A DNA stretch of 64,000 nucleotides. Source: Opitutia bacterium ISCC 52 (GTDB taxonomy: Bacteria > Verrucomicrobiota > Verrucomicrobiia > Opitutales > UBA2995). The position numbers and the translations under genes were made by a program. The notes beneath the pieces are model-generated. The model did not search any database. It saw only the letters and a program-made list of their open reading frames with translations, and had not been told where the DNA came from. The DNA lies in the NCBI GenBank assembly GCA_014529675.2, contig CP076040.1:3243894-3307893 (forward strand), in the 5' to 3' direction. Shown here piece after piece: positions 35,420-62,600 of the stretch (position 1 is its first letter; each line of letters begins with the position of its first letter).

Positions 35420-35923
35420 TCAAGGCCGGTGTTCCAAGCGCCCGAGATACTCATACTCATCAAACGCATCCGCGCCACCGATGATTCGCGGATCCTCGTA
35501 TTTCTCCAGTTCGTAAAAAAGTTTTTCTTTCAAGCGCTTCAAGGTATCTACATATTCGGTACGGTCGGCGACATTATGCATCTGATAAGGATCCAGACGA
35601 AGGTCGTAAAGTTCATCCGCCGGTCGAAGTCCAAAGGATAGCTGCCAATAGATTTCCATATCCGGCTCGTCCTTATGCTCAAGGATGTAACTCTTCGTGG
35701 GGGCCTCGTTGACTTCCGAATAAGCCGGCCCATAAATACTTCCGTCGGGGTGACCGGCCGGCCATCTTTCAGGATTGAAACTGTGGATATATAAAAAACT
35801 ATCGGTGCGAATAGCGCGCATGGGAGTCCCCCCCATATGATCTATTTGAGCCACAGTATGGCGTTCTTTGCCAGTCAGCACGTATTCACGATCCGGTGAC
35901 ACTGGATGATCATGCGGGGAATT
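35420..35923 (-). pseudogene. C-terminal fragment of an S1-type sulfatase
   Basis: The fragment (about 167 codons) encodes only the C-terminal third of a sulfatase of the heparan N-sulfatase-like type: REYVLTGKERHTVAQIDHMG, then MRAIRTDSFLYIHSFNPERW, and the C-terminal YDLRLDPYQMHNVAD, which is the usual end of the subdomain (DLxxDPxExxN). The catalytic N-terminal domain with the CxPxR formylglycine site is absent; an in-frame TAG lies just upstream at about 35924. The truncated LacI regulator ends 70 bases away on the same strand, suggesting one deletion removed the regulator's 3' end and the sulfatase's 5' two-thirds. Confidence 0.75.
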
Positions 35924-35992
35924 CTAGAAATTGTAGAAGAATAATAAACGGGCAGGCTGACTTTGATAACAAGGTAAGTAGGAGAACAGGGA

Positions 35993-36844
35993 TCAAACGC
36001 TACTAAGTATTAGAGTAGATCCTATCAAAGAAGAAAGACCTGCCTTCATTACAATCAATGCTGGTCGGCTGATCACGACTTGAGGTCGGTGTTCTCTTAA
36101 CCAACTACGGATGGTTCCATGATCATTTTCTCCCTCCACTCGCAAAACAGGTATATGGTCTTCCGGGCTAACCCGTTGAGTTTGCGAAAAAATATGTGCG
36201 CCGTCCCATTGGTAACTCCATCGCACATCCAACTCGTTTTGAACCACCAGGCCAACACGGCTGTATCCACGTTCCATTAGTTTGTCCCAACAAAGCATCA
36301 TATCCATGTAATGATTCTGCACAACATGATGAAACAGAGTGTAGTTGGAGGGCCGGCTAATCGTCACTGCGGAGAATTGCTTCCAGTCCAGATCGAGCAA
36401 GTCATCGTTGTTCTCAAAAGGGGCAAGTATCAAACCTCGTATCCCCCTCGATTGGAGAATGTGACTGAATCGCTTTGGACTCACGCCTTCATCCTGCGCC
36501 CAAAATTCCTGGAGTGAATACCCAAGCCTCAGGGCTCTTTCCTTGGCACCCTGGATAACTTCTTTTTGAAGCGGATTCCCTGAACAGGCATTCCGAGTGC
36601 TCCAATTGGTCACCAGGCCTATGACTGAAAACTGATTTTGGACACGAAGCTTGCTTCGATAAGCCGACAAAGCAGAGAGAGCCGGATCCGGACTGTAGCC
36701 CAACTCATCGGCAATACGCTTCACGCGTTCCACTGTGGCTCGAGCGATGGTGGGATCATTTTTCATGGCCATCGAAACCGCGGAAACACTCAAATGGGCT
36801 TTCTCAGCAATGTCTTTTAAACGAACTCGGGGATGGAAGGACAT
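35993..36844 (-). CDS. LacI-family transcriptional regulator, C-terminally truncated
   Basis: The 283-residue product has an intact LacI helix-turn-helix (VRLKDIAEKAHLSVSAVSMAM, residues about 7-27) and the hinge (ADELGYSPDPALSALSAYRS), followed by most of the periplasmic-binding-like domain. It ends abruptly after VVISRPALIVMKAGLSS, where LacI proteins normally have another 50-60 residues. DNA binding should remain possible, but effector binding and dimerisation may be altered. A palindrome lies 47 bases upstream of its start and recurs at two more places in the island (see the operator entries). The gene is divergent from the NRAMP-like transporter. Confidence 0.8.
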   Translation of the reverse strand: MSFHPRVRLKDIAEKAHLSVSAVSMAMKNDPTIARATVERVKRIADELGYSPDPALSALSAYRSKLRVQNQFSVIGLVTNWSTRNACSGNPLQKEVIQGAKERALRLGYSLQEFWAQDEGVSPKRFSHILQSRGIRGLILAPFENNDDLLDLDWKQFSAVTISRPSNYTLFHHVVQNHYMDMMLCWDKLMERGYSRVGLVVQNELDVRWSYQWDGAHIFSQTQRVSPEDHIPVLRVEGENDHGTIRSWLREHRPQVVISRPALIVMKAGLSSLIGSTLILSSV

Positions 36845-36890: not shown

Positions 36891-36906
36891 TTTGAACTGT
36901 TTCAAA
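36891..36906. promoter_or_regulatory. candidate LacI-family operator, copy 1
   Basis: TTTGAACTGTTTCAAA, an imperfect palindrome, lies between the divergent LacI-type regulator and the NRAMP-like transporter gene. Its reverse complement TTTGAAACAGTTCAAA agrees in 14 of 16 positions or more with copy 2 at 40428 and matches copy 3 at 42347 closely. LacI operators are palindromes of this size. Confidence 0.6.
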
Positions 36907-37075: not shown

Positions 37076-38515
37076 ATGTCTTCCATCAAATATCCCGAAC
37101 CTCCCGAGCAATTGAAGGGCAAGGGTTGGTGGAAATCGATCGGTTTTCTAGGACCCGGAATTATCATTGCCTCGATCTCCATTGGCACCGGTGAGACGAT
37201 TTTTGCCTCACGAGGGGGAGCGATTTTTGGTTACGCCATACTTTGGTGTTTCACGATTGGACTGATTCTGAAGGCGATCCAGATCTACGCCTCTTCGCGC
37301 TATATGATGATATCGGGTGAGCATCCCATGCAAAGCTGGATCATGCTACCGGGGCCCCGTGGCTGGATGCCGATTGCGCTGCTCCTGATGACTGGCGTTT
37401 GCCTTCCCTTTCTGCTCGCCGCCCTATCGATATCAGTGGGATCTATCATCTCCTGGGCACTCGGTTCAGGAGAAATGTCGGACTTGTCTGTAAGACTCTG
37501 GGCCACCGGATTGGTGATCGCAGCAGCGGTGGTAAGCTGGGGCCAGACCTACAAACGCCTGGAGACCACACAAATGTTCGTCGTGGGCATCCTACTGGCA
37601 TGTATCCTGGTGGCCGCTATTGCCTGTCAACCTGACCTGGGAGCACTCATAAAAGGGATGCTGGTTCCAGCCATTCCAAGCTACAAAGAATGGATTCACC
37701 AATCGTATCCGAACATCGCAAAACAAGCTGAATGGATCGAGCTGGTCACTTACATGGGAATCATTGGAGGAGGACTCCCCGCCTATATTGGCTACTTTGG
37801 TTTCTTGAGAGATAAACAATGGGGTCTGTTCGCAAAACAAGAGATCTATAATCACTCGACTGCAGAAGGTTTCCCGGAAATCGATGCTTCCGATGACAAT
37901 AAGCGGAACTGCCGCAATTGGCTGAGAGCCATCAAAATCGATGTAGGTGGATCATTCCTGGCCATCTTTATCTTTTCTTCTGCTTTCATGGTTTTGGGGG
38001 CCGTCATTCTTCACCAAGCACAGCTAATCCCTGACAAATTCGAACTGCTCACTCACCAGGAAAAATTCCTCACCGCTCTGAGCCGTTCCCTCCTTATCCT
38101 CTACCGCATAGGTATTATCGCGGCCATCGGTGGAACCTTGTTTGCTTCCTTCGATGTGTGGACCAAAAGCATCTACGAAGGCATTCTACCATTTCAGAAA
38201 AAGGAAAACCCAATCTCCAACGCCCAGTTAAAAAAATGGATTATTCTTAGTACCTCCATTATCGGCATCAGTGTAATCTGGTTAGGCCTGATCTCTGAAA
38301 CTTTATCCAACCCAATCACCATTGTAGCAGTTCCGGCACTCCTTGGAGGCACGACCGGGTGTGGAGTCTGGTGCCTGGGAGTCGCGTGGGCAGACCGTAG
38401 AAATTTGCCTCATTCCTATCGGATGAAACCCCTCCTCTTTTTCCCACTCATACTATCTGGCTGCTTCCTTCTCTTTGCCGGACTGCTGGGATTCTATTTC
38501 AAGTTCATCGGCTAA
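37076..38515 (+). CDS. NRAMP-superfamily transporter lacking the DPGN motif (type 1)
   Basis: Integral membrane protein of 479 residues with about 11 helices and NRAMP (SLC11) topology. The first helix reads LGPGIIIASISIGTGETI, where metal-transporting NRAMPs have DPGN in place of GTGE; helix 6 (YMGIIGGGLPAYIGYFGFL) lacks the MPH metal-binding motif. It therefore probably does not carry Mn2+/Fe2+ in the usual way. It is divergent from a LacI-type regulator and sits among sulfatase and sugar enzyme genes, so a sugar or organic-acid substrate is plausible, as inference. A second relative is at 61239. Confidence 0.75.
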   Translation: MSSIKYPEPPEQLKGKGWWKSIGFLGPGIIIASISIGTGETIFASRGGAIFGYAILWCFTIGLILKAIQIYASSRYMMISGEHPMQSWIMLPGPRGWMPIALLLMTGVCLPFLLAALSISVGSIISWALGSGEMSDLSVRLWATGLVIAAAVVSWGQTYKRLETTQMFVVGILLACILVAAIACQPDLGALIKGMLVPAIPSYKEWIHQSYPNIAKQAEWIELVTYMGIIGGGLPAYIGYFGFLRDKQWGLFAKQEIYNHSTAEGFPEIDASDDNKRNCRNWLRAIKIDVGGSFLAIFIFSSAFMVLGAVILHQAQLIPDKFELLTHQEKFLTALSRSLLILYRIGIIAAIGGTLFASFDVWTKSIYEGILPFQKKENPISNAQLKKWIILSTSIIGISVIWLGLISETLSNPITIVAVPALLGGTTGCGVWCLGVAWADRRNLPHSYRMKPLLFFPLILSGCFLLFAGLLGFYFKFIG

Positions 38516-40052: not shown

Positions 40053-40088
40053 TCCCATTTCCATAGAGTGACGTGAATCACTCAAACA

Positions 40089-40124
40089 AAAAGGGCACCC
40101 ACGACTACTTGCGGGTGCCCTTTT
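40089..40124. terminator. strong bidirectional rho-independent terminator
   Basis: AAAAGGGCACCC (40089-40100) and GGGTGCCCTTTT (40113-40124) form a perfect 12-bp stem around a 12-base loop with A/T tails on both sides. It serves the rightward hydrolase-like gene and the leftward TonB-leader minigene. Confidence 0.9.
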
Positions 40125-40145
40125 AACTTATAGAACTACAAACGT

Positions 40146-40310
40146 TTAAAAACTAAAGGTGGTGGTAGCTTGGTAACCAATGGTCTCTTCCTCAGAGATC
40201 GTAAATGGACTGAGGTCGTAGACGGGTTCTTCATCCTTCTGCTGCGCAAACAGAGGCGGGATCAACAATCCAAGGGATAATAGAATAAGATAGGTTCTTA
40301 ATGATTTCAT
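40146..40310 (-). CDS. 54-residue secreted peptide with a TonB-receptor leader motif
   Basis: The ORF encodes a clear signal peptide (MKSLRTYLILLSLGLLIPPL, cleavage after FAQQ) followed by DEEPVYDLSPFTISEEETIG and YQATTTFSF, then stops. The LSPF-x-I/V-S...GYxATTT stretch is what I know from the start of mature TonB-dependent receptors in Verrucomicrobiota, just before the plug, and the final Phe resembles the end of a barrel. It is most likely a receptor gene from which plug and barrel were deleted, but a functional short exported peptide cannot be excluded. A strong terminator follows within 22 bases and an operator-like palindrome lies 118 bases upstream. Confidence 0.6.
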   Translation of the reverse strand: MKSLRTYLILLSLGLLIPPLFAQQKDEEPVYDLSPFTISEEETIGYQATTTFSF

Positions 40311-40427: not shown

Positions 40428-40443
40428 TCTGAAACAGTTCAAA
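40428..40443. promoter_or_regulatory. candidate LacI-family operator, copy 2
   Basis: TCTGAAACAGTTCAAA. Its last 14 bases are identical to the reverse complement of the first 14 bases of copy 1 (36891-36904). It lies 118 bases upstream of the TonB-leader minigene and 100 bases downstream of the sulfatase stop. Confidence 0.55.
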
Positions 40444-43485: not shown

Positions 43486-44754
43486 CTACACATTTTCAAC
43501 CAGGTGATATTTCTTCACCCAATCCGGATCTATATCCACACCGATACCCGGTCCCGTCGGCACTTCGATTTTCCCATTTTCCAAGCGCAAGGATGAAGTA
43601 CTACATTCAATCGGTATATTCTCGTACCCCTTAAACTCAATATGGGGTCCAGCGTTGGGCATGGCGGAAACCAGATGCAGCATGTAGAGGTAACCAAGAC
43701 CTCCAGACAAATGAGGAATACAGGTTTTGCCCATGGCTGCTCCCATATGCGCTGCTTTGAGCGATCGAATCAATCCACCGAAATAATAATGATCGGGTTG
43801 GACCACATCCAGGCCACCGTTGGCCAGTAACCAACGGAACGCGTACATACTGTGCTGCTGCTCACCGCCTGCGATCGGGATAGATAGCGCATCCGCAACC
43901 TGCTTGGTGCCTTCCAACCAATCGAAGAATACCGGTTCTTCAAAATAACTGTAGTTGTACTTCTGTAGCAGCTTTCCAACCCGAATCGCCTCCCCAACAT
44001 CCTTATAGTATCCATTGGCATCCGAGTAGAGCGCCATATCAGGGCCAAAGGTTTCTCGGATGAGTGGGATGATTTCTTCAGTGCGACCCACTGGACCTCG
44101 TGCATCCACATCCTTGGTCATAAACATCAAGGCACCGACTTTGATCTTCACCGCCTGGGCCTTGCTCTTTTCGACCGCTGCTTTGATCAAAGCTACAGAT
44201 TCCTTCACCGGCTTTTCTCTCCACTCGGTTGCCTGATAGACAGGGATGTGAGTGTTGTGAATGTCGCCAATTAATTGCCCAACGGGTTTTCCAGCTATCC
44301 GGCCCATCATATCCAATATCGCGAACTCAACCGTCGCAAGAGGGATACCTATACCTAATCCGCCAAAGCGGTAGTTGAATGCAAACTCAAGCGCCTTATC
44401 CAGCAACTCATCTAAACGACGTGCATCTTGGCCGATAAATACGGGCTGCACCCGGTTCACGAAAATAGGATACAACAAATTCATTGTGTTGTGAGACACC
44501 GAATGGCCGACGGCCCCGTCTTTCGATTGCACACGGCAGATAAATTTGCGCTCATACTTCAAGAGCTCAACCGATTCAATGATCACCGGATCGGAAAAGA
44601 GCTCACTTTTGAAAAGCGGTTTGGCCAATACCTCATCCAGCTTTGCATAGTTTGCATCCACGCTATCGGACTGCCCAGTAAGAGCACTTGGTATACCCAC
44701 CGCTGCGCCTCCAATAGCAGTGGAAGACAGAAATTGACGTCGGTTGATCTTCAT
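43486..44754 (-). CDS. Tat-exported mandelate racemase/enolase-superfamily protein
   Basis: A 422-residue member of the mandelate racemase/muconate-lactonizing subgroup with a Tat leader (INRRQFLSSTAIGGAAVGI). The barrel has the catalytic KIK motif in QAVKIKVGALMF (about residue 203), metal ligands Asp in LYSDANGYYKD, Glu in YFEEPVFFDW and Glu in IAGGEQQHS, and QPDHYYFGGL with an Asp near the end. Family relatives dehydrate sugar acids such as galactonate, galactarate or fuconate. Export to the periplasm is unusual for a dehydratase. It precedes an aldo/keto reductase, on the same strand, 62 bases upstream. Confidence 0.87.
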   Translation of the reverse strand: MKINRRQFLSSTAIGGAAVGIPSALTGQSDSVDANYAKLDEVLAKPLFKSELFSDPVIIESVELLKYERKFICRVQSKDGAVGHSVSHNTMNLLYPIFVNRVQPVFIGQDARRLDELLDKALEFAFNYRFGGLGIGIPLATVEFAILDMMGRIAGKPVGQLIGDIHNTHIPVYQATEWREKPVKESVALIKAAVEKSKAQAVKIKVGALMFMTKDVDARGPVGRTEEIIPLIRETFGPDMALYSDANGYYKDVGEAIRVGKLLQKYNYSYFEEPVFFDWLEGTKQVADALSIPIAGGEQQHSMYAFRWLLANGGLDVVQPDHYYFGGLIRSLKAAHMGAAMGKTCIPHLSGGLGYLYMLHLVSAMPNAGPHIEFKGYENIPIECSTSSLRLENGKIEVPTGPGIGVDIDPDWVKKYHLVENV

Positions 44755-44905
44755 ATGGATAAGGTAGCAAAGCGTTCATGTGTCTGGCAATCTTTCCAAG
44801 CAACCAGAGGGAGTAACAACCCATCCGGCGTACAAGGAAAAGGTTGCCAACAACAGTTTACACCTGAAAATAAGAGGAGTAAACTCAGGTATTACCCCAT
44901 TCACT

Positions 44906-46447
44906 ATGACTGATCTAAGCAACGCCGACCAACTCGACGAACGTACAAAAAAGAAAATCTTCTGGGCCTGTTTTATCGCCCTGGTAGCCACCTCCTTTGT
45001 TTTTGGAGTGCGCGCCAATGTGATAGGCGACCTGGCTGTGAAGTTTGATTTATCCGAAGCTCAAAAAGGAACCATTCTCGGTGTCGGTCTCTGGCCCTTC
45101 GCCATCAGTATTGTTCTCTTTAGCCTGATCATCGATAAGATCGGTTATAAAACCGCGGCCGTCATTGCCATCGTTTGTCATGTCGCATCCCTGCTGCTGA
45201 CCATTTTTTCCACGGGTTATACCAGTCTTTATTGGGCCACCTTCCTCGTAGCGATCGCCAATGGCATCGTGGAAGCCTTTATCAACCCGGTGGTCGCCAC
45301 TATTTACCGCGACGAGAAAGCCAAATGGCTAAACATCCTGCACGCCGGTTGGCCAGCAGGGTTGGCCTTGGGCGCACTCTTCACCATCTTCCTGGGTGGT
45401 CTCGATTGGCAGGTAAAATACGGCATGTGCTTAATTCCAGTGGTTATCTACACTGTGTTGGTAATGCCCTGTAAGTTCCCACCCAATGAACGGGTGGAAG
45501 CCGGTGTATCCTATCGGGAGATGCTGGGAGAAGTGGGAGCGGTCGGTTTCTTTATAATTGGTTGGCTCATGACTATGGGTGTAGCTCAAATCGCCGGCGT
45601 TCAATTGTCAGCTATGGTTCCTTTAGGAATCGCCGCTGTGGTTGGAGTCCTTGCCTTTGTTTATACAAGAGGCTTCGGCAGTTGGATGTTCCTACTCATC
45701 TTGCTGACCATGGGGCCTCTGGCCACAACCGAGCTGGGAACTGATTCCTGGATGCCAGATCTTCTTGGAGCTGAACTTTCTGCAACGGGTGCAACCTGGG
45801 TATTCATTTATGTTTCCACCATTATGACCATCCTGCGGTTCTACGCAGGACCGATTGTTCATAAGTTCTCACCGATTGGTCTTCTGGTCATCAGTGCCAT
45901 TGTCGCGATCGTTGGACTTCTATTCCTATCCAAAGCAACCGCCTTTGTGGTGGTGATAGCTGCAACGGTGTATGCCTTTGGCAAAACCTTCCTTTGGTCC
46001 ACGACCCTTGGCTTGGTTTCCGAACAATTCCCTAAGGGAGGCGCGCTAACCTTGAATGGTGTATCCGCTGTCGGGGTACTTGGAATGGGAATTATCGGCA
46101 CTCCATTCATGGGCGTTCTGCAGGACCGCGAGGTAGATGCGCAGCTAGCAGCCAGTAACCAGGCCATCCACGAACAGATCAGTGGAGAACCTCGTTCAAC
46201 CATTTTCGGAGAAGTTCCCAGCGTGAACATGGAAGCCATCGCTGCCCTGCCGCCAGCAGCCCAGGAAGAATTATCCGGCATTCAAAAAGCCAGCAAGAAA
46301 GGAAGCTTCGCCAAAGTCGCTATTCTTCCAAGTTTCATGCTAGCTTGTTACTTGATACTGTTTTTCTACTTCAAGTCCAAGGGAGGCTATAAGCCGGTCG
46401 ACTTACACGGACAGGAAAAGGCCGAAGAAGCGGAACCCGGGTTTTGA
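44906..46447 (+). CDS. MFS transporter
   Basis: Major facilitator superfamily protein of 513 residues with about 12 helices (first: IFWACFIALVATSFVFGVRA; helix pair with loop IDKIGYKTA between helices 2 and 3, the D-x2-G-x-K/R motif). A long C-terminal loop of about 70 residues after LQDREVDAQLAASNQ precedes the last helix. ATG 44906 starts the MTDLSNADQLDERTK leader; an in-frame GTG at 44780 would add 42 residues with no similarity. It ends inside the start of the PhyH-type gene (TTGA overlap). It is divergent from the enolase-superfamily gene, so it probably imports the sugar acid or sugar used there. Confidence 0.83.
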   Translation: MTDLSNADQLDERTKKKIFWACFIALVATSFVFGVRANVIGDLAVKFDLSEAQKGTILGVGLWPFAISIVLFSLIIDKIGYKTAAVIAIVCHVASLLLTIFSTGYTSLYWATFLVAIANGIVEAFINPVVATIYRDEKAKWLNILHAGWPAGLALGALFTIFLGGLDWQVKYGMCLIPVVIYTVLVMPCKFPPNERVEAGVSYREMLGEVGAVGFFIIGWLMTMGVAQIAGVQLSAMVPLGIAAVVGVLAFVYTRGFGSWMFLLILLTMGPLATTELGTDSWMPDLLGAELSATGATWVFIYVSTIMTILRFYAGPIVHKFSPIGLLVISAIVAIVGLLFLSKATAFVVVIAATVYAFGKTFLWSTTLGLVSEQFPKGGALTLNGVSAVGVLGMGIIGTPFMGVLQDREVDAQLAASNQAIHEQISGEPRSTIFGEVPSVNMEAIAALPPAAQEELSGIQKASKKGSFAKVAILPSFMLACYLILFFYFKSKGGYKPVDLHGQEKAEEAEPGF

Positions 46448-61238: not shown

Positions 61239-62600
61239 TCAAGATCCGCCCCCTAGTTTTGCGATCAAACCATACAGGGCTATGACGGTAATGGTAATTC
61301 CTGAGACCCAAAGAAAGATGTCGAACACCTTGGTCGGTCGCAGCTCAGGGGTGTATTTCTTGTAACGCAGATACAACGCGCCGAACGAGATCGCGATTAA
61401 ACTGGCTGCCTGAAATGTACCAGCAATCACTACCATCCACAGGGGTTGCTTGAATACCAGAAAGAGCGTTAGATGGAAAAAGGGAAGGATGGTCACCAGG
61501 CGTTTAATCGACCGTTGTTTGTCTACTTCATTTCTGACCTCTAACCACCCAACTAGTTTAAAGCAGTCGGTAAACATTCGGGAATGAGTGGCGGTACTGA
61601 CAAAGATGGTCGAATAGAGAGCCACAAAGGCACCGATTAGAAAGACGATGCGGGAACCTTCACCCAAGGTCTCCGTGTAAATGAGGGACAGGTTTTTAAT
61701 CATGTCCATGCCCTCGGGAGCCAATCCACGCGCATGCAGGACGGCTGCTCCAAGCAGGTAAAACGCAACCGTCAATCCTGTGTAGATGACCAATGACAGC
61801 ATGGCGTCCAATTTCATGACACGCATCCAACCCTTGGCTCGTTTTAACCAGGCCTCGGTGCGTTCAAAGGGACCGGTCGCTTTGGCATAACCTTTTTCCA
61901 GACAAAAAGTCGGATAGTAAATAAGCTCACCGGCGCCCACTCCCGTTATGCCAAACATGGCCAGAGCCACCGCCAATCCGCCAATAGGAAGATCAAACTG
62001 CAAACCGGAACTTACCTGATCCCACGTAAGTGCATAATCCGTTCCTTGGATTAAAAGCACACAAATCAGCGTCGTGATCGTGAATGCCAGAACCATCCCT
62101 GCTGAAACATTTTGCAGCAGCTTGTATTTCCCGAATCGATGTACGCAAATGGTAAAGACCATCATGAACACAGCCCATCCCCAGACGGGAATCGCCGGCA
62201 CCAAAATATTCAGAACCATTGCCACACCTCCCAGCATAGCCCCCTGTTGCAACATAATCATGCAAAGGACCAGCATCCACCACCAGATAAACCAAGACGC
62301 CTTATGTCGCGGTCCCGGAAGATCGTTGAATGCCTCTAAGGTGGTTTTGCCGGAATAGATAGCGTATCGTCCCAGCATCAGCTGAACGGCAACCTTAATC
62401 ACACAGCTCACCAGGATCAGCCAAAGAGCAACGAAGCCCGCCTTGGCTCCCAAGCCTGTCGTAGCAATAAGCTCTCCCGATCCAACTACTCCGGCGGTCA
62501 TGATCAGCCCTGGCCCCCAATAGCGCAACATGCACCCTAGTTTGGTTGGAGGATCTTGTATACCGGTGCTTTCGTTGGGTGGCGTTGAGTCTGGAGGCAT
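61239..62600 (-). CDS. NRAMP-superfamily transporter lacking the DPGN motif (type 2)
   Basis: A membrane protein of 453 residues with about 11 helices and NRAMP fold. The first helix reads WGPGLIMTAGVVGSGELI and then ATTGLGAKAGFVALW; metal-transporting NRAMPs carry DPGN where this has GSGE. Helix 6 reads GITGVGAGELIYYPTFCLEKG, again with GxGE instead of the MPH motif. The same GxGE pattern at helix 1 occurs in the relative at 37076. Metal transport is therefore doubtful. It is upstream of the esterase gene on the same strand and divergent from the sulfatase at 62735. Confidence 0.78.
   Translation of the reverse strand: MPPDSTPPNESTGIQDPPTKLGCMLRYWGPGLIMTAGVVGSGELIATTGLGAKAGFVALWLILVSCVIKVAVQLMLGRYAIYSGKTTLEAFNDLPGPRHKASWFIWWWMLVLCMIMLQQGAMLGGVAMVLNILVPAIPVWGWAVFMMVFTICVHRFGKYKLLQNVSAGMVLAFTITTLICVLLIQGTDYALTWDQVSSGLQFDLPIGGLAVALAMFGITGVGAGELIYYPTFCLEKGYAKATGPFERTEAWLKRAKGWMRVMKLDAMLSLVIYTGLTVAFYLLGAAVLHARGLAPEGMDMIKNLSLIYTETLGEGSRIVFLIGAFVALYSTIFVSTATHSRMFTDCFKLVGWLEVRNEVDKQRSIKRLVTILPFFHLTLFLVFKQPLWMVVIAGTFQAASLIAISFGALYLRYKKYTPELRPTKVFDIFLWVSGITITVIALYGLIAKLGGGS

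Follow-up and report, generated by a model that had tools for sequence, protein, structure and literature searches.

The region analysed is a 64,000-nt window from Opitutia bacterium ISCC 52 (CP076040.1 of assembly GCA_014529675.2, positions 3,243,894–3,307,893 of the forward strand; coordinates below are window positions). It contains a complete, uninterrupted reading frame of 479 codons (37076–38515, + strand) that encodes a 479-amino-acid Nramp-related transporter. The gene directly downstream encodes a partner protein of 456 amino acids, here called C2 (38682–40052, +), which is a probable enzyme conserved in this position. A likely intrinsic terminator (GGGCACCC...GGGTGCCCTTTT; 40068–40129, +) follows, recognized from its sequence and coinciding with a sub-threshold Rfam match to a hairpin sRNA family. 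A LacI-family regulator gene (35993–36844, −) diverges from the transporter gene, and the intergenic region between them holds an operator, TTTGAACTGTTTCA (36891–36904, +), with the palindrome TGAA-ACAG-TTCA. The same pattern search located a second copy (40430–40443, −) upstream of a 54-codon remnant of a TonB-dependent receptor gene (40146–40310, −). The island also encodes an enolase-superfamily (MR/MLE) protein with a TAT-like signal that resembles sugar-acid dehydratases (43486–44754, −) and an MFS transporter (44780–46447, +), for which the nearest NCBIfam model is a weak match to the aromatic acid/H+ symport family. The initial annotation described the surroundings as a sugar/sulfatase island with an adjacent LacI regulator. 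Sulfatases, Gfo/Idh/MocA enzymes and the divergent LacI gene are indeed present, but the LacI gene is truncated and the sulfatase-like frame at 35420–35902 (−) is a 160-amino-acid fragment resembling a sulfatase C terminus (a weak SGSH_C match, below cut-off); in a related genome (G089), a full sulfatase gene adjoins the LacI gene.

The transporter exceeds the thresholds of both Pfam Nramp PF01566 (E = 2.7e-10; 40.3 bits against a gathering score of 29.8) and NCBIfam NF037982 (85.6 bits; cut-off, 50). NRAMP proteins hold metal with the Asp and Asn of DPGN in helix 1 and the Met of MPH in helix 6, and the canonical acidic motif in transmembrane helix (TM) 3 provides a proton pathway. The TM1 of the transporter (FLGPGIIIASISIGTGETIFASRGGAIFG) has GTGE in the DPGN column, as the initial annotation had proposed, and three kinds of alignment give this register: a MAFFT alignment that included 18 canonical Nramps from the phylum (exact), a profile–profile alignment with same-phylum canonical Nramps (probability 98, E = 1.6e-13) and a PDB profile search against solved NRAMP structures (EleNRMT 7qia, E = 1e-10; human NRAMP2, E = 3e-8; DraNramp, E = 4e-6). 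Alignment of the orthologues likewise places G[TN]GE, and not DPGN, in TM1. The further claim that helix 6 is without MPH also held: where canonical proteins have GATVMPHxxY, helix 6 (MGIIGGGLPAYIGY) reads GGLPAY, within a stretch (GIIGGGLPAYIGY) that includes GGLPAYIGY. The TM3 acidic motif (T-D-x-A-E region) is absent as well, with FLLAALSIS where canonical proteins have ATDMAEFIG (MAFFT). Homology to the NRAMP structures implies a presumptive LeuT fold; an AF2 model from four sequences (pLDDT 38) was too poor to use.

G[TN]GE and GGLPAY are kept together in nine sequences, including the query, that share 65–100% identity, and dN/dS of the transporter against its nearest orthologue (genome G064) is 0.03, so the motif change reflects neither chance nor a local error. 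C2 gives a dN/dS of 0.05 against the same genome, and both genes are under purifying selection. Fourteen GxGE relatives share invariant G37, G39, E40, G231–G233, Y237 and Y240. Within the order, relatives occur in 16 of 273 genomes (E ≤ 1e-15) and the close GGLPAY group in nine, one of which (G211) belongs to another family. A relative was detected in just 4 of 387 genomes sampled across the phylum (E ≤ 1e-20), and the GxGE clade is thus sparse; more distant members (38% identity, TM1 with GSGE) are carried by two plasmids of Haladaptatus. In a phylogenetic tree, the query falls within a GxGE clade of 20 sequences from Opitutales and the two Haladaptatus plasmids (SH-aLRT 99), whereas the 18 DPGN proteins sampled from the phylum all group in a separate clade (SH-aLRT 100).

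The window genome (G000) encodes eight Nramp-family proteins (GPGS, GGGD, GAGD, GGGS, GTGE and three GSGE), none of which is a canonical DPGN protein. Besides the GTGE gene, a second of these lies within the window (61239–62600, −), has GSGE in TM1 and GAGEL in TM6, and adjoins sulfatase genes. Another, of GPGS type, belongs to an overlapping gene set elsewhere in the genome (locus L017, 8847–12608; about 3955846–3959607) together with genes for a xylose-isomerase-like TIM barrel, a glucosamine-6-phosphate-isomerase-family protein and a NagA-like protein (assigned by eye); the set adjoins PIG-L and Gfo/Idh genes, which suggests an amino-sugar carrier with an Nramp fold. In genome G030, a single cluster that includes DapA, MR/MLE and Gfo/Idh genes contains two different Nramp-related genes, of GSGE and GGGT type (L060, 6933–14539). 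On a Haloferax lucentense plasmid, a GPGT-type Nramp-related gene overlaps a hydantoinase/oxoprolinase gene pair (L074, 7917–12753); in the tree, the query and the Haloferax protein encoded beside oxoprolinase-type genes lie on distant branches.

The LacI gene of the window, identified by its LacI helix–turn–helix domain and by tblastn with intact orthologues, encodes 283 amino acids and matches residues 1–260 of a 345-amino-acid orthologue, with the last ~85 codons gone; the divergent gene is intact in G064, G048 and G089. Compared with G089, the truncated LacI gene and the neighbouring sulfatase-like fragment (35420–36844, −) resemble the outcome of a deletion at the LacI/sulfatase boundary. 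The operator core (TTGAACTGTTTCA) is perfectly kept between the LacI and transporter genes in the window genome, G064, G048 and G089, and also stands upstream of the transporter gene in G211. In six whole related genomes, the 13-mer occurs seven times, each time at the transporter locus, and the reversed pattern, used as a control, has no occurrence. It is absent from G032, in which the transporter is present and the close LacI orthologue is only a stop-riddled stretch. The second operator copy precedes a TonB-receptor gene in two genomes, that of the window (40430) and G048. In G048 it lies between an intact TonB-receptor gene and a divergent MFS gene, which is an orthologue of the window MFS gene (86% identical) and starts beside the operator. 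The G048 receptor at the corresponding place has 1,120 amino acids; the window remnant (found as a reading frame) joins approximately its first 51 codons (signal peptide and start of the plug) to a C-terminal ...FSF, so that about 1,000 internal codons have been deleted in frame. The gene set is fuller in the other genomes. With its regulator cut after residue 260 and its receptor reduced to 54 codons, the system of the window genome may have lost repression, or a paralogous regulator and a different receptor may serve it. TonB-receptor, sulfatase and sodium:solute-symporter-like genes surround both an intact LacI paralogue of the window genome, where a fucosidase-like gene is also present, and the LacI relative that comes closest in G211 (all named by eye).

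The order of transporter and C2 genes is the same in G064 (4-bp gap), G048, G099, G032 and the more distant G211, and in G089 the two genes stand at the ends of two contigs; among the 273 genomes of the order, nine have the GGLPAY transporter, eight have C2 and seven have both. No relatives of C2 were found in Pfam or by PDB profile search, a plasmid search gave no match, and an AF2 model from two sequences was again too poor to use (pLDDT 35). In G447, from another lineage of the phylum, the gene of a C2 homologue is followed immediately by TctC–TctB and TctA genes, indicating that a carboxylate carrier serves the C2-type protein in that genome. The genes of C2 homologues in G468 and G004 have no adjoining carrier gene; the G468 homologue (L075, 9299–10735) has a TAT-like signal and is apparently exported. 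In G007, which has no C2, a mannonate/galactonate-dehydratase-like gene follows the transporter gene after a 24-bp gap, and its product scores 368 bits against the ManD model, under the cut-off of 550.

Neighbouring genes of the GxGE clade (n = 83) include 6 MR/MLE, 5 Gfo/Idh, 3 LacI and 8 sulfatase matches, whereas those of canonical Nramps in the same phylum (n = 98) include 3 MntR-type repressors, 2 FeoA and at most 1 match to MR/MLE or LacI. The MR/MLE count is well above background, considering that the 4.8-Mb window genome has 24 such matches, although the genomes compared differ; sulfatases and Gfo/Idh enzymes abound in such genomes, and their presence carries little weight on its own. 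In G030, the relative has MR/MLE and DapA genes nearby, and in G047 an NAD-dependent epimerase-family gene; the Haladaptatus relatives adjoin genes of UxaA, LUD, mandelate-racemase and FAH type. The phylogeny and genomic context of GxGE relatives, which the initial annotation had put forward as a check, reveal a separate clade with sugar-acid dehydratase-like genes in its neighbourhoods. Consistent linkage to metal genes in other genomes, named there as evidence against an organic substrate, was not seen around GxGE genes, and no family of metal regulators recurs among their neighbours, unlike those of canonical Nramps with MntR and FeoA nearby. No oxoprolinase family is among their listed neighbour matches. 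Rfam searches of 11 relative loci gave no riboswitch match at gathering score, and no M-box was found in the window stretch.

Nramp-related proteins without DPGN and MPH are recognized as a paraphyletic set, and the majority of its groups are described as entirely uncharacterized (PMC12873925); a literature search for Nramp with Planctomycetes, Verrucomicrobia/fucose or mandelate racemase found nothing relevant. The query shares with canonical Nramp/SLC11 proteins (MntH, DraNramp and NRAMP1/2) homology over approximately the first 200 residues and a matching TM1 register, but has none of their DPGN, MPH, TM3 acidic motif or metal-gene linkage. The Mg transporter EleNRMT, its closest solved structure by profile, is also without a full DPGN, but keeps the Asp (DAGG) where the query has Gly. 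M-box riboswitches control some NRMT members, and the query locus has no Mg riboswitch. PxpT/YcsG (MntG) is likewise an NRAMP-family protein whose gene adjoins catabolic genes and, in Corynebacterium glutamicum, is accompanied by a divergent regulator (PMC13274462); the query differs in having no oxoprolinase genes, another partner protein and a LacI-type rather than GntR-type regulator. MumT of Acinetobacter, compared by description, is a divergent NRAMP protein of a catabolic operon (urea carboxylase; PMC5050338), but is LysR-controlled and has a reported Mn phenotype. TctABC occupies the place of the transporter beside the C2 homologue in G447, but is unrelated to it in family and mechanism. 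By eye, the early Gly-x-Gly of TM1 recalls the APC amino-acid permeases; homology to their GSG motif had no profile support (hhalign probability 1.7).

From the genes, operator, linkages and loss of metal ligands observed here, we consider that the transporter probably imports a small sugar-derived carboxylic acid and not a metal, as a LeuT-fold, Nramp-related secondary carrier devoid of the metal site. Import of a small organic acid is the most likely function because the metal-binding residues are lost, the switch is of sugar type and the associated genes serve carbohydrate breakdown. In the proposed scheme, a TonB receptor (encoded in sister genomes and collapsed here) would take saccharide fragments into the periplasm, and the GxGE carrier would move an acid, such as an aldonate, uronate or similar hydroxy acid, inward across the inner membrane. 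Co-transcribed C2, or the mannonate/galactonate-dehydratase-like enzyme in G007, would then process the acid, and binding of a LacI repressor to the TGAACTGTTTCA operator would switch the gene set. In APC amino-acid carriers, the substrate carboxylate is bound by the unwound Gly-x-Gly of TM1 (the GSG motif); by analogy, the corresponding segment of the GxGE carrier may hold the carboxylate of its substrate. The initial annotation had also suggested an organic substrate, from location. The operator beside LacI, the pairing of C2 with TctCB–TctA elsewhere and the sugar-acid clusters agree with this suggestion, but MumT and YcsG/MntG, for which there is genetic evidence for Mn (PMC5050338, PMC10448178), show that a place in an organic-metabolism operon is compatible with a link to metal. 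Its view that no organic substrate had been described for the superfamily is outdated: PxpT of C. glutamicum, an NRAMP-family protein, was found in 2026 to be needed for growth on 5-oxoproline (PMC13274462), so an organic substrate is not unprecedented, and YcsG had earlier been annotated likewise.

That the protein is still an importer of divalent metal, with a site rebuilt from E40 of GTGE and other residues, and supplies Mn or Mg to the island's sulfatases and metal-dependent dehydratases seems doubtful to us. Mg-transporting EleNRMT is the nearest solved relative, the window genome has eight Nramp-family genes and no DPGN among them, and divergent NRAMP proteins from organic-metabolism operons have Mn phenotypes: MumT (PMC5050338) and YcsG/MntG, the proposed substrate of YcsG having been first 5-oxoproline and later Mn (PMC10448178). 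In a 2026 companion preprint, Nramp-related proteins that align are likewise judged likely to transport metals (PMC13060092). Against such a function, neither the Asp, the Met nor the TM3 motif has been retained, neither an M-box nor another riboswitch accompanies the gene or the 11 relative loci, recurrent metal regulators are missing from the neighbourhoods, the locus is marked by a LacI-linked operator and C2 is elsewhere paired with a tricarboxylate-type carrier.

The LacI regulator and TonB receptor would also suit sugars. That the substrate is organic but not a sugar acid, for instance a neutral mono- or disaccharide, an amino acid, or a lactam such as 5-oxoproline, we regard as unlikely, even with the requirement for PxpT in 5-oxoproline use (PMC13274462), the hydantoinase/oxoprolinase overlap of the Haloferax gene from another group, one relative near D-serine-dehydratase-domain and Cys/Met enzymes and the window-genome paralogue set with a glucosamine-6-phosphate-isomerase-family gene: several neighbour enzymes of the GxGE clade (MR/MLE, DapA and UxaA families) act on acids, and the alternative carrier beside C2 is of TctA type. 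The truncated LacI, 54-codon TonB receptor and fragmentary sulfatase of the window could also mark a locus being lost, with the protein itself in decay or, perhaps as a receptor-like sensor, no longer transporting. This is highly improbable, as the transporter and C2 reading frames are complete here and in the orthologues and the low dN/dS values against G064 indicate constraint on both.

Organic-acid import remains the leading, though unproven, role for the GxGE carrier, a real and conserved variant among known Nramp-related carriers with features that hint at its function. Automatic annotation labels GxGE proteins divalent metal transporters, and current structural work takes metal as the probable substrate of aligned Nramp-related proteins (PMC13060092). 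In our judgement, the chances are evenly balanced that this label is wrong for the whole clade, and that a branch of the Nramp fold extending from polysaccharide-degrading Opitutales to haloarchaea imports sugar acids under sugar-type regulation. The operator, the partner protein and the interchangeable carboxylate carrier make this contrary view directly testable. If correct, it would provide a candidate route of sugar-acid uptake in polysaccharide-degrading bacteria, and would bear on whether metal transport by Nramp proteins arose from a carrier of organic substrates.
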